The position numbers were made by a program, and so were the translations under genes. From Actinomycetota bacterium (GTDB lineage: Bacteria > Actinomycetota > Actinomycetes > Mycobacteriales > Mycobacteriaceae), in contig JAFDWN010000037.1 in NCBI GenBank assembly GCA_018268465.1, positions 132,600 through 196,599 on the forward strand: 64,000 bases of DNA, given 5' to 3'. How positions within the stretch are numbered: position 1 is the first letter of the stretch; each line of letters opens with the position of its first letter. Below the pieces are notes generated by a model. It saw only the letters and a list, made by a program, of their open reading frames with translations, searched no databases and was not told the DNA's origin. Of the stretch, positions 2,554 to 15,496 are shown piece after piece.

Positions 2554-2617
2554 CGCCGAATGTGCGGTTGTTCGCGGGCATTCTCGCGGAATGCGTATAG
2601 CAACCGTGCTTTCGGCG
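2554..2617. repeat. 64-bp palindromic intergenic repeat, copy E1
   Basis: First of three equal-length copies (others at 12269-12332 and 13244-13307) that align without gaps. The ends are CGCCGA and TCGGCG. The outer ~19 bp are near-perfect inverted repeats (CGCCGAATGTGCGGTTGTT against the far end). Copy E1 also has an inner hairpin, GCATTC-TCGCG-GAATGC. It fills the 72-bp gap between two convergent genes and could also act as a transcription terminator. Whether it is a known REP-like family I cannot say. Confidence 0.85.
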
Positions 2618-12268: not shown

Positions 12269-12332
12269 CGCCGACTGCACGGTTGTTTGCGGGCTCTCTC
12301 GCGAAACGCGTACACCTTCCGTACGGTCGGCG
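12269..12332. repeat. 64-bp palindromic intergenic repeat, copy E2
   Basis: Same length and ends (CGCCGA...TCGGCG) as copies at 2554-2617 and 13244-13307, in the same orientation. It lies 50 bp upstream of the DUF559 start, so that gene is bracketed by E2 and E3 as direct copies. Confidence 0.85.
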
Positions 12333-12382
12333 AGGAAAAATTGGTGCGGTCGAGGCACTCCCGGCCCGGTGACGATCGAGGA

Positions 12383-13237
12383 GTGCGCATCGTCGTCGCC
12401 ACCGAAGTGCTCGCCAGCGGGGCCCTCACCCGCCGCGACCTCACCCGGCGGTACACCAAGGTGTATCGCAACGTCTACGTCCGCAACGATGCGGAAGTGA
12501 CCGCGCTGGACCGGGTGCATGCCGCATGGCTGTGGTCGGGACGGCAGGCGACGATGGTCGGGCACTCCGCGGCGCTGTTGCTCGGCAGCAAGTGGATCCC
12601 GGCCGACACACCCGTCGAACTGGTGCACCGCCGCCGCCCGGGCGCCAGGGGAATCCTGGTGCGTAGCGACCGGATCGCCGACGACGAGGTGTGCGTCCAG
12701 CGTCGGATCCGGTGCACCACGACGGCGCGCACGGCCTACGACCTCGGCAGGCGGCTGGACGGGGAGGAAGGCGTGATCCGCATCGACGCACTGCTGAACT
12801 CGACGCGGGTCGGCATCGACGAGATCGCCTCTCTCGCGACGCGTTACCCGGGCGCCAGGGGAATCCGGCAGCTGCGCAGCACCCTGAGCCTGGTCGACGG
12901 CGGCGCCGAATCCCCGCAGGAAAGCAGGCTGCGGCTGCTGCTCATCCGATCCGGGCTGCCGCGACCCACCGTCCAGATACCGGTACGCGACGCGACCGGA
13001 CGCGTGGTGCGCCGACTCGACATGGGCTGGCCCCGGTGGCTGGTCGCCGTGGAGTACGACGGTGCACACCACTGGACGGACCCGGTGCGGCATTCCGCGG
13101 ATATCGAGCGCCTGGAGTTCCTCGCGTCGCTGGGCTGGACGATCGTGCGGGTCAGCGCCACCCAGCTGCGCAGCCAGCCCCGCGCCGTCGTCGACCGGAC
13201 GCGGAACGCGTTGCGGCGGGCTGGCTTTCCCGGGTGA
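12383..13237 (+). CDS. DUF559 endonuclease-like protein with AbiEi-type N-terminal domain
   Basis: 284 residues from the GTG at 12383; an in-frame GTG at 12344 is also possible. The N-terminus (VLASGALTRRDLTRRYTKVY) resembles the winged-helix region annotated as type IV toxin-antitoxin AbiEi in mycobacteria. The C-terminal third is DUF559, a Vsr/PD-(D/E)XK nuclease relative: RRLDMGWPRW supplies an Asp, VAVEYDGAHHW the E-x-D plus His, and WTIVRVSATQL the last strand. Key acidic residues look intact. It is a stand-alone gene, without a cognate toxin or methylase next to it, and is tightly enclosed by two copies of a 64-bp repeat (E2 and E3). That suggests a mobile or repeat-associated cassette. 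Confidence 0.82.
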   Translation: MRIVVATEVLASGALTRRDLTRRYTKVYRNVYVRNDAEVTALDRVHAAWLWSGRQATMVGHSAALLLGSKWIPADTPVELVHRRRPGARGILVRSDRIADDEVCVQRRIRCTTTARTAYDLGRRLDGEEGVIRIDALLNSTRVGIDEIASLATRYPGARGIRQLRSTLSLVDGGAESPQESRLRLLLIRSGLPRPTVQIPVRDATGRVVRRLDMGWPRWLVAVEYDGAHHWTDPVRHSADIERLEFLASLGWTIVRVSATQLRSQPRAVVDRTRNALRRAGFPG

Positions 13238-13243
13238 TACGCC

Positions 13244-13307
13244 CGCCGAAAGTACGGCTGTTCACGGGCTCACTCGGGAGACGTGTGCGGCAACGGTGCA
13301 CTCGGCG
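13244..13307. repeat. 64-bp palindromic intergenic repeat, copy E3
   Basis: Third copy of the repeat, beginning 6 nt after the DUF559 stop. Its right 46 bp lie inside the reading frame of the convergent MMPL gene and supply that protein's last 15 codons and stop. This implies that the element entered or was acquired at an existing gene end. Confidence 0.85.
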
Positions 13308-15496
13308 CGGCGGCCGACAGCACGCCAGGGCTGCGGGGCCCACCAGTTCAGGCGGCCGAGCACCTTCATCGAGGCGGGCAGCAGCACCATCCGCACCAGC
13401 GTCGCGTCGACCAGCACCGCCAGCGTCACCCCGACGCCGAACATCCGCATGATCGACACGTGCGCGGCGATCAGCGCCGAGAAGGTGACCGCCATCAGCA
13501 CTGCCGCGGCGGTGACGACCCGCCCGGTGTGGGCGAGTCCGAGGGCCACACTGTTCTCGTTGTCGGCGCGGGTCTGCCCGGAGGCCAACCAGAATTCGCG
13601 GATCCGCGAAATGAGGAAGACCTCGTAGTCCATCGACAACCCGAACACCAGACAGAACAACAACACCGGAACGCTCGCGACGACCGTGCCCGTGGGTGTG
13701 GTGCCGAATGCGCCCAGGTGGCCGTCCTGGAACACCCACACCAGCGCACCGAATGCGGCGGTCAGCGATAAGACGTTGAGCAGCAGCGCTTTCAGTGGCA
13801 GGACCAGGCTGCCCGAAAGCACGAACAGCAAGACGAAGCTGACCGCGCCGATGATCGCGAGCACGTAGGGCAGCCGTGACGTCACCGCGTCGGCGCTGTC
13901 GCGGTTGATCTGCGCCCACCCCGTCATCAGCGCCTGGCTGCCGTCGGGTACCGGCACGGCGTGGATGTCGTCGAGTTGCCGCTCCGATTCGGGCGTGTAG
14001 AGCGGCGCGGTGGAGTTGACCGTCAGGAATGCGCTGCCGTTCGACAGACCCGTTGCCGACGAGGGCGGTCCCGCCGGAGCACCACCGACGAATGCGCCAG
14101 CAGGCGAGGAGACCGCCGAAACACCCGGGACCCGGGACAGATCCGCGGCGTAGCGGGTGAGATCGGCCGCCGACACGCCGGTGACGTCGGGCAGGACGAC
14201 GGTCACGTCGGTCAGGGTGTTGACGGCGAAGCCCTCGCGCAGTTCGTCGCCGACCTGCCGCGCGCTGGCCGAGGCGGGCAGCAACCGGTCGTCGGGGTAA
14301 CCGAATGCGACGCCCAGGAACGGCGCACCCGCGACCAGCAGCAGCGCGACGACCGCCAAGCCGATCGGAATTGCCCGCCGCATCACCGTTTTCGACCATC
14401 GGTACCAGAACGTCGCCTCCGCGGGCAGCGGTAGCGGTGCCGGGCGTCCGCGAAGGCGACGCACGGCCGCCCGCACATCCCAGCTGTCGAGCCGCGGTCC
14501 GAGCAGGACGATCACCGCCGGTGTCACCAGCATGGAGGCGGCCGCCGCGAACACCACGACGGCAACCCCGGCGTAGGCGAACGACCTGAGGAAGTTCATC
14601 GGGAACAACGCCAGCGCGATCATCGACAGCGACACCGTCGTCGCCGAGAACAGCACGGTCCGCCCGGCGGTGCCCATGGTGCGCGCCAGCGCATCGTCCT
14701 TTCCGGCGCCGGCGGCGAGTTCGTCGCGGAAACGGCTCACGATCAAAAGCGTGTAGTCGATGGCCAGCGCCAGCCCCAGGGCAAGACTGAGATTCAGCGC
14801 GAACACCGACACCTCGGTGACGTAGGTCAGGACGCGCAAGGCGGCCATCGAGCCGACGACCGCGAAGACCCCGACGGTCAGGGGCAGCGCGGCGGCGAGC
14901 AGCCCGCCGAACACCCAGACCAGCACGGCGAAACTCACCGGTACCGCGATCGCCTCCATCACCAGCAGGTCTTTTTTGGTCTGGTCGACGATCTGGAGGT
15001 ATCCCATGACATCACCGCCGGCCCGCACCGTCACCCCGTCCGGATGTGGCAGCAGCTCACTGAGCTCCCTGGCGTGCGACTGCGCGGCGGATTCCCCGCC
15101 GGATACCCCGGCGACGATCAGCCCGGTGTTCCCGTTCCTGCTGACGAGTGCGTGCGCGGCCGCCGGCGGCGCCGTCCAGGCCGACTGCACCGCGGTCACG
15201 TAGGGCAGGCGGGTCAGCGTCGCGACGATGTCGGCGGCTGCCGCCCGCGCGGCCGCGCTGTGGACGCCGTCGTCACCGGTGACGGCGATGACGACGTGCA
15301 TATCGCCCTGGCCGTGCGTCGTCGCGAGCAGGTGGGAAGCACGCCAGGACTCCGACGTGGGGTCACGAAACCCGCCGTTGGACAGATCGCCGACGACCGG
15401 CGCCCCGAACACGGCCGCGGCCGTGAGCACCAGCAGCGCGACGGCGATGATCCGCCGGGGTGCCGTGATCGCGAGGCGGGCGACTGCCTGCAGCAT
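13262..15496 (-). CDS. MMPL/RND-family membrane transporter
   Basis: 744 residues, the short MMPL type. TM1 is at the N-terminus (RIIAVALLVLTAAAVFGAPV), followed by an outside loop domain, then TM2-6 with the proton-relay motif ALAIDYTLLIVSRFRDE. A second loop domain follows, then TM7-12 with GLSMDYEVFLISRIREFW. The two DY pairs are the conserved proton-relay residues of MmpL proteins. Such transporters export lipids or drugs across the inner membrane; the substrate is unknown and no MmpS is encoded nearby. The extreme C-terminus (RRAECTVAAHVSRVSP) is encoded by repeat E3 and is probably not functional. An unlinked mmpL lies at 56550. Confidence 0.93.
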   Translation of the reverse strand: MLQAVARLAITAPRRIIAVALLVLTAAAVFGAPVVGDLSNGGFRDPTSESWRASHLLATTHGQGDMHVVIAVTGDDGVHSAAARAAAADIVATLTRLPYVTAVQSAWTAPPAAAHALVSRNGNTGLIVAGVSGGESAAQSHARELSELLPHPDGVTVRAGGDVMGYLQIVDQTKKDLLVMEAIAVPVSFAVLVWVFGGLLAAALPLTVGVFAVVGSMAALRVLTYVTEVSVFALNLSLALGLALAIDYTLLIVSRFRDELAAGAGKDDALARTMGTAGRTVLFSATTVSLSMIALALFPMNFLRSFAYAGVAVVVFAAAASMLVTPAVIVLLGPRLDSWDVRAAVRRLRGRPAPLPLPAEATFWYRWSKTVMRRAIPIGLAVVALLLVAGAPFLGVAFGYPDDRLLPASASARQVGDELREGFAVNTLTDVTVVLPDVTGVSAADLTRYAADLSRVPGVSAVSSPAGAFVGGAPAGPPSSATGLSNGSAFLTVNSTAPLYTPESERQLDDIHAVPVPDGSQALMTGWAQINRDSADAVTSRLPYVLAIIGAVSFVLLFVLSGSLVLPLKALLLNVLSLTAAFGALVWVFQDGHLGAFGTTPTGTVVASVPVLLFCLVFGLSMDYEVFLISRIREFWLASGQTRADNENSVALGLAHTGRVVTAAAVLMAVTFSALIAAHVSIMRMFGVGVTLAVLVDATLVRMVLLPASMKVLGRLNWWAPQPWRAVGRRAECTVAAHVSRVSP

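Follow-up and report, generated by a model that had tools for sequence, protein, structure and literature searches.

A DUF559 nuclease gene of mycobacteria enclosed by matching palindromic repeats: a candidate REPtron-like unit

Introduction

What is a nuclease-like gene doing between two copies of the same palindrome? The 64,000 nucleotides of Mycobacteriaceae DNA analysed here (the window), a stretch of a source assembly of 6.9 Mb in 72 contigs, contain a DUF559 gene with one 64-nt palindromic element shortly before it and a second shortly after it. A sequence-only reading of the locus had proposed that gene and repeats form a unit similar in spirit to REP elements and their RAYT enzymes.

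REPs are the most familiar dispersed palindromes of bacteria. In the portion of PMC3733652 used here, they are linked to HUH enzymes, the RAYTs, while some repeat families have no known enzyme. RAYT genes enclosed by REPs are termed REPtrons, and the REPs themselves occur scattered, chiefly where neighbouring genes are convergent or unidirectional. In the two species described in detail in that portion, most REPs between convergent genes lie at most 20 bp from both 3′ ends, and where a genome has several REP families its REPtrons are repeat-specific (PMC3733652). Repeated hairpins are also described from mycobacteria: the Mycobacterium tuberculosis stem-loop families include Myt-1 (72 bp, 75 members) and Myt-8 (92 bp, 33 members), as given in part of PMC2267715, and TRIT terminators are named in the portion of PMC3526491 used here. 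The element of the window resembles these, on a comparison by description only, in being a repeated mycobacterial hairpin, but in the parts of their descriptions used here no enzyme is tied to TRIT, Myt-1 or Myt-8.

Results

Two matching hairpins enclose the gene

The upstream element, E2 (12269..12332, + strand), lies 50 nt 5′ of the GTG start codon of the nuclease gene, and the downstream element, E3 (13244..13307, + strand), lies 6 nt 3′ of its stop (13237). Both are 64 nt long, start with CGCCGA, end with TCGGCG and run in parallel orientation, and they are identical at 45 of 64 positions; among 20,000 shuffles of the E3 letters none reached 45, the best giving 32. The earlier description of two elements of equal length, ends and orientation placed 50 bp before and 6 bp after a single gene was thus confirmed, with the start taken at GTG 12383. 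The longest open frame begins at TTG 12287, a start that falls inside E2. About 10 kb from the unit a single element, E1 (2554..2617, + strand, 64 nt), sits between convergent genes, 7 nt past one stop and 1 nt before the other. It is identical to E2 at 49 of 64 positions and scores 78.4 bits with the profile R1, being one of the seven sequences from which R1 was built. A copy-derived pattern allowing up to three mismatches matches the window at three places and is absent from 100 shuffles. An Rfam search over the stretch around E2 and E3 gave no family at the gathering score. The MMPL-family gene on the other strand (13262..15496, − strand), a neighbour outside the unit, ends at 13262 and has its last codons and stop within E3 (13262-13307), so E3 may have altered the end of the neighbour's protein.

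Twenty copies of the element from the source genome and its relatives, hand-picked for clean ends from 43 listed copies and those of the source genome (alignment A2), align without gaps over 64 columns. A hairpin of 23 pairs laid on this alignment has 91.1% of its cells paired, compared with at most 45% for slid versions. The number of cells changed on both sides is 23 against 10.4 in shuffles (sd 3.1), a comparison that ignores the kinship of the rows; the number of hairpin pairs in A2 with two-sided changes (5 versus 4.1 in shuffles) and the number of further pair types (16 versus 15.3) showed no excess. The loop CTCG, invariant in the A2 rows, and a one-base bulge give the element a direction. 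By eye, a loop motif like ACTCGCAC recurs among hairpins with unrelated stems (for example at loci L099, L117 and L118), and it may be a common recognition feature. Outside the window, at G000:C30:109159-109222, there is a perfect 64-nt palindrome with the CGCCGA/TCGGCG ends and an unrelated stem, for which we propose either a strong terminator or another element family.

The gene encodes a conserved predicted nuclease

The gene (12383..13237, + strand) encodes 284 amino acids from GTG 12383. Residues 23-125 (12449..12757, + strand) match the AbiEi model PDLC02228 of PADLOC at 9.8e-10, and the same model was matched in 30/30 aligned family members. By analogy with AbiEi proteins, this N-terminal region would be the DNA-binding part. 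The C-terminal part holds a PD-(D/E)XK-type (DUF559/MTES_1575) domain at residues 211-277 (13013..13213, + strand), with a DUF559 match (Pfam PF04480) of 24.3 bits, above the curated cut-off of 20.6, and a sub-threshold match to the MTES_1575 REase (Pfam PF18741) of 35.3 bits against a cut-off of 38.2. We take D213, E224, D226 and H230 to be the active-site residues, on our own reading of the motif. In 151 aligned proteins, chosen for a flanking pair scoring at least 15 or for membership of the clade of the window gene, D213 is present in all 151, and H230 and E180 are each present in 150. Position 224 carries E in 143 proteins and D in 7, and position 226 carries D in 139 and E in 12. The dN/dS ratio in 12 pairs of close relatives is 0.08-0.24, indicating purifying selection. 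With the domains matched, the nuclease residues kept and dN/dS low, the product appears functional, with selection acting on its predicted nuclease residues, in agreement with the earlier assignment of an AbiEi-like N-domain joined to a DUF559 domain with intact acidic residues.

The nearest protein matches that carry species names are from Mycobacteriaceae, with identities up to 66%, and among solved structures there was a single weak match, 3hrl (E = 0.81). Pfam found only DUF559 and MTES_1575 on the window protein and no Y1 transposase domain; the two Y1_Tnp matches of the genome are elsewhere, on contigs C4 and C47. The immediate neighbours of the gene are a DUF4185 gene and the MMPL gene, and there is no adjacent AbiEii nucleotidyltransferase toxin, both immediate neighbours belonging to other families. 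Among the family loci compared, DUF4185 was seen only at the window's own copy. The MMPL gene was dropped as a synteny marker, since its family is paralogous.

A restriction-like defence nuclease that uses the hairpins as control or protection sites appears very improbable. PADLOC gave matches to AbiEi and weak ones to defence nucleases, but no methyltransferase or toxin partner is found in the DUF4185 and MMPL neighbours, and in NCBIfam the top match for the window protein (E = 0.0018) has 15.8 bits, far short of the cut-off of 1500 bits. Among the 600 pattern stretches listed, viral contigs contributed two distant relatives, in the nuclease part only. The presence of up to 12 family matches per genome (among the matches listed), many of them with a pair of their own, also fits this reading poorly.

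Matching pairs recur around relatives of the gene

If the two elements belong with the gene, its relatives should be enclosed in the same way. We aligned the 300 nt upstream of each gene to the stretch from −60 to +200 nt around its stop, in both orientations, with open frames from the same stretches, picked by codon-position G+C, as controls. In a first set of 78 loci from 14 chosen genomes, three of which gave one locus each, 58 scored at least 16 (48 directly), compared with 2 of 167 control genes, one of which scored 34 (inverted). The second set comprised 80 named loci, those whose proteins most resemble the window protein, with some strains shared between the two sets; L273 had no stop and was left out, and 62 of the 79 loci tested scored at least 16 (46 directly), compared with 0/151 controls. 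After removal of L260 and L282, which duplicate L058 and L059 (157 to 155), 119 of 155 distinct mycobacterial loci have a matching pair at this threshold versus 2/318 controls, and the proposal of a repeat-nuclease unit was to this extent largely borne out. No pair at threshold was seen in 36/155 mycobacterial loci. Three of the six full-length loci of the source genome are among those with no pair at threshold, one of them just under at 15; a partial seventh paralogue, on contig C27, belongs to the R1 vicinity search described below and is outside the pair test. The DUF559 set of each genome is that among the matches listed, and one match of genome G017, near a contig end (C26), is partial.

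The two copies had been described as direct repeats, which holds for E2 and E3 and fails as a rule for the family. Direct alignment scores higher in 68 of the 119 pairs, inverted alignment in 46, and 5 are ties; direct orientation is thus no family rule, and the elements are nearly palindromic.

The layout extends to other actinomycete loci, whose proteins are 30-41% identical to that of the window. With an upstream region of 350 nt plus 60 nt of the gene, 11 of 16 such loci score at least 20, compared with 1/240 swapped pairings; L335-L337, at contig ends, were left out (16/19 tested). Among the loci from other actinomycete families (L331-L349), some pairs are longer (87 nt aligned in L349) and have no CGCCGA foot. 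Two dispersed repeats that happen to lie around an unrelated gene would be conceivable in a family that is dispersed and favours gene ends, but other loci and other species show the same layout, and so do paralogues whose repeats are different. The recurrence of the layout in the pair tests makes the chance reading untenable, and we give it practically no weight.

How far the hairpin sequence is shared depends on the relatedness of the proteins. Upstream regions match (score at least 16) in 90% of comparisons above 0.70 protein identity, 42% at 0.60-0.70, 10% at 0.55-0.60, and about 1% or less at lower identity. Below 0.55 identity the hairpin sequences are unrelated and the layout is kept. 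Above 0.55, the matching as read from these alignments mixes shared upstream descent with any co-evolution, the two being unseparated. That the hairpin travels with the gene seems better seen at relatives that occupy other loci, such as one in genome G014, which is 64% identical, has different neighbours and carries a like hairpin. Mapping of specificity to parts of the protein by sliding-window correlation gave only weak signals, with partial correlations of at most 0.07 (residues 101-140), and we base no conclusion on them.

Strict pattern delimiting of both elements kept 19/156 loci, and positions in the larger set were therefore taken from alignments. In these 19 units the outer element lies at most 20 nt from the neighbour's stop in 14, and on both sides in 10. 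Target-site duplications were not found in the 19 units: the direct outer flanks scored a mean of 2.95 versus 3.15 when shuffled. The inverted outer flanks scored 4.00 versus 3.61 (sd 0.24), not clearly above the shuffled value. At two loci, L060 and L266, the outer flanks of the unit are mutually complementary, as if it had been inserted into an existing terminator hairpin; such complementarity is not clear across the 19 delimited units. At a further locus (L057 3854-4020, genome G004) the element occurs twice in tandem on one flank of the nuclease gene.

Dispersed copies form private families and track the gene

Of the 44 places in the genome that fit the 64-nt end-to-end pattern, most were judged by eye to be chance, and profile models were used instead. 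The R1 profile finds 13 distinct places in the source genome at E ≤ 1e-5, six of them new relative to the seven copies from which it was built and 11 away from the gene, with weaker matches beyond; hairpins are thereby about ten times commoner than the gene in this genome. When genes were called by a simple codon-usage method, 12 of the 13 places overlapped a stop codon or had one no more than 15 nt away, and 7 were between convergent genes. E2 is the sole exception, with no adjoining stop codon.

The genome has six other DUF559 paralogues, and the best R1 match at most 1.5 kb from any of them had E = 0.33. One of these paralogues, at C1:65001, is 48% identical to the window protein and has its own family of 63-nt hairpins, R3, with 11 copies: the two flanking ones, from which the model was built, and nine elsewhere at E ≤ 1.1e-4. 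According to the crude gene caller, only 4/9 of the dispersed R3 copies lie within 20 nt of a stop. Two weak R3 matches, L385 and L387 (G000 C55:7238 and C38:4522), have stems that by eye are nearer to the hairpins of a gene in genome G017 (L107) than to those of the genome's own paralogue. The sequence-only reading had considered that DUF559 genes elsewhere might lack the element. This particular element is indeed absent near the six paralogues, but most genes of the family have a pair of their own.

The clade of the window gene, delimited at E ≤ 1e-95, is present in 88 of 396 genomes of the genus, with one match in 84 and two in 4. Copies of the hairpin, counted with the profile R2, follow it: at least five copies are found in 44/88 genomes with the clade versus 11/308 without, and at least one copy in 75/88 versus 77/308. 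These comparisons ignore kinship, the counts are lower bounds (from the best candidates, at most 13 per genome), and the E-values are rough. R2 covers one spelling of the hairpin; other clade members, for example that of genome G021, have another. Of the 308 genomes with no clade match at E ≤ 1e-95, 18 still have at least four R2 copies, and two of these 18, G055 and G123, hold fragments of the gene at the PPK2 site described below.

These data bear on a regulatory reading, in which the hairpins are bidirectional terminators or 3′-end structures, the upstream copy is an operator of the AbiEi type, the nuclease is uninvolved, and rare recombination spreads the copies. Such a role would suit first-family elements that lie right behind stops, seven of 13 between convergent genes, and it recalls the binding of AbiEi proteins to inverted repeats in their promoters described in the part of PMC7319586 used here. 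It would also suit the pattern of change: between homologous copies, stems differ at 27/380 sites and loops at 41/260. Two-sided changes were few, which counts against the REPtron-like reading proposed below: among 22 changed stem pairs in the homologous copies, one was two-sided with pairing kept, eight were one-sided with pairing kept, ten had lost or gained pairing, and three were unpaired in both. However, matching hairpins before and after ordinary genes are rare (2/318), the two paralogues have different repeats, both of them present in multiple copies in the genome, and copy number tracks the gene clade (kinship ignored). We therefore consider the regulatory reading quite unlikely as a full account. 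The earlier alternative that the element is scattered over convergent gene ends with no association to the gene was half right: R1 does sit at gene ends and often between convergent genes, but its copies track the gene.

The unit rarely relocates

Many members of the clade lie between two genes that we take, from their sequences, to encode PPK2 and 3-hydroxybutyryl-CoA dehydrogenase. Among 58 genomes compared at this site, 24 have the gene, which runs forward in 20 (truncated at a contig end in one) and is reversed in 4; 3 have a fragment and 31 have no match; the count rests on 59 places, one of two in G123 being left out. We classed 25 of the 31 gene-less sites, five having no match to the 3-hydroxybutyryl-CoA dehydrogenase and that of the source genome holding an unrelated gene. 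In 17 of the 25 the stop of the PPK2 gene overlaps the stop that comes next or is separated from it by at most 17 nt, so these sites hold neither gene nor element. Four have, on our reading, a similar hairpin of other spelling, and the other four have another or no clear structure. The PPK2 site houses 22 of 57 clade members in forward and 13 in reversed orientation; the remaining 22 lie elsewhere. Parsimony on a quick tree of these 57 requires 8 changes of locus class and 2 changes of orientation. The locus labels show strong clustering (shuffled mean 26.3), and the gene therefore keeps its place in most cases; by this tree, relocation of the unit is rare and the clade is mostly inherited in place.

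Single elements can likewise be followed between genomes. Of 20 element stretches taken from five genomes, 16 could be matched to a homologous stretch in at least one of the other four. When 15 single-element loci of the source genome were compared with the flanks of DUF559 loci, one had a gene-filled counterpart, and its element is a degenerate copy (E = 0.03 with R1, outside the 13 clear places). At this site genomes G307 and G312 carry the gene and the source genome carries the one degenerate element, with left flanks 78-79% and right flanks 65-68% identical; in the G312 unit the upstream element alone is recognisable. As to the empty sites that the earlier reading had envisaged, with one copy and no gene, gene-less sites exist and one has a single degenerate element, but most have no element at all.

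The main rival reading is homing into a single hairpin: the gene would be mobile with the hairpin as its target, repair would turn one hairpin into hairpin-gene-hairpin, and recombination loss would restore one hairpin. A PD-(D/E)XK-type domain in the protein is what such a reading calls for, and a palindromic target suits both orientations at one site. It also accommodates the single-element site of the source genome that is filled with the gene in two relatives, and the G014 unit, which, when the gene and one element are removed in thought, becomes the usual layout of stop, hairpin and stop. However, 17 of the 25 classable gene-less PPK2 sites are too tight for a hairpin, the roughly tenfold excess of hairpins over genes goes unexplained if only the gene homes, and the single elements would still need an agent that spreads them. 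On balance we regard homing as unlikely.

Discussion

We consider it probable that the unit works in the manner of a REPtron, with a PD-(D/E)XK enzyme in place of the RAYT. The REPtron is the nearest working model, used here by analogy. Several results count against the reading: relocation is rare and most compared element stretches (16/20) have homologous counterparts; 36 of 155 loci have no pair at threshold; few dispersed R3 copies adjoin stops; some genomes with no clade match hold many copies; one of 15 single-element loci has a gene-filled counterpart; target-site duplications were not found in the 19 delimited units; two-sided changes among the A2 hairpin pairs show no excess; and above 0.55 identity shared descent is mixed with co-evolution. 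As in REPtrons, the gene is enclosed by its own palindromes (119/155 loci versus 2/318 controls), and the repeats are dispersed near gene 3′ ends, clearly for R1 (12/13) and in only 4/9 cases for R3. The enzyme gene of a REPtron is mostly single copy and vertically inherited; the nuclease gene here is likewise mostly single copy (84/88 genomes), and its locus class is clustered on the tree. The differences lie in the enzyme, which is of the PD-(D/E)XK type with an AbiEi-like N-terminal part and no HUH/Y1 protein, and in the hairpin, which is about 64 nt long with the foot CGCCGA/TCGGCG and carries neither a GTAG nor a CGTC tag in the A2 consensus. The unit falls outside REPtrons proper because the defining HUH enzyme is missing.

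Three other systems share single traits with the unit. Vsr-like (EDxHD) homing endonucleases would have a related nuclease fold, but no intron or intein is seen here and whole palindromes stand on both sides of the gene. IS200/IS605 elements have secondary structures near both unit ends, as described in the portion of PMC6006769 used here, and so does this unit, but no Y1 transposase domain was found, and the element, a complete repeat, also occurs dispersed by itself. AbiEi antitoxins, one of them mycobacterial, bind inverted repeats of 23 bp that lie upstream of the antitoxin gene itself, according to the part of PMC7319586 used here. The N-terminal region resembles that of these antitoxins (type IV toxin-antitoxin AbiE, Rv2827c), whereas the C-terminal domain is of nuclease type, the immediate neighbours include no toxin partner, and the repeats lie on both sides of the gene and are dispersed.

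What is established for the mechanism is that the repeats go with the gene, and nothing beyond this; that the protein binds, cuts and mobilises the hairpin is what we infer. In the REPtron-like scheme, the AbiEi-like N-terminal part would recognise the cognate hairpin, and the copy just upstream of the gene could double as an operator, like the inverted repeats bound by AbiEi antitoxins. The PD-(D/E)XK part would then nick or cut at the hairpin. Repair of the break by copying or by recombination between hairpins would keep pairs alike and seed single hairpins at new sites, and it could occasionally move, invert or delete the nuclease gene. Recombination across a pair would leave one hairpin. 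Elements right behind stops would persist because they do little harm there, and perhaps hairpins are retained as 3′-end structures of transcripts.

A wider proposal, which we put forward tentatively and hold with less confidence than the REPtron likeness, is that these units are a separate kind of repeat-spreading machine. A PD-(D/E)XK nuclease with an AbiEi-type reader would process its own hairpin and mobilise or copy it in trans, and the family would have diversified across actinobacteria, up to about ten times per genome, into private enzyme-hairpin pairs, becoming a source of many palindromic repeats with no HUH enzyme. In the titles and abstract openings of a mostly open-access literature, we found no paper tying DUF559 or AbiEi-like nucleases to palindromic repeats, and this looks like an enzyme kind with no earlier link to such hairpin repeats.

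The unit provides a concrete candidate enzyme of a non-HUH kind for dispersed palindromes in a large bacterial group, and its cognate enzyme-hairpin pairs can be pitted one against another. If the nuclease acts on its hairpin, the origin of many actinobacterial hairpin repeats would be explained, a "domain of unknown function" would gain a function, and the family would constitute a natural set of enzymes and sites with evolving specificity.
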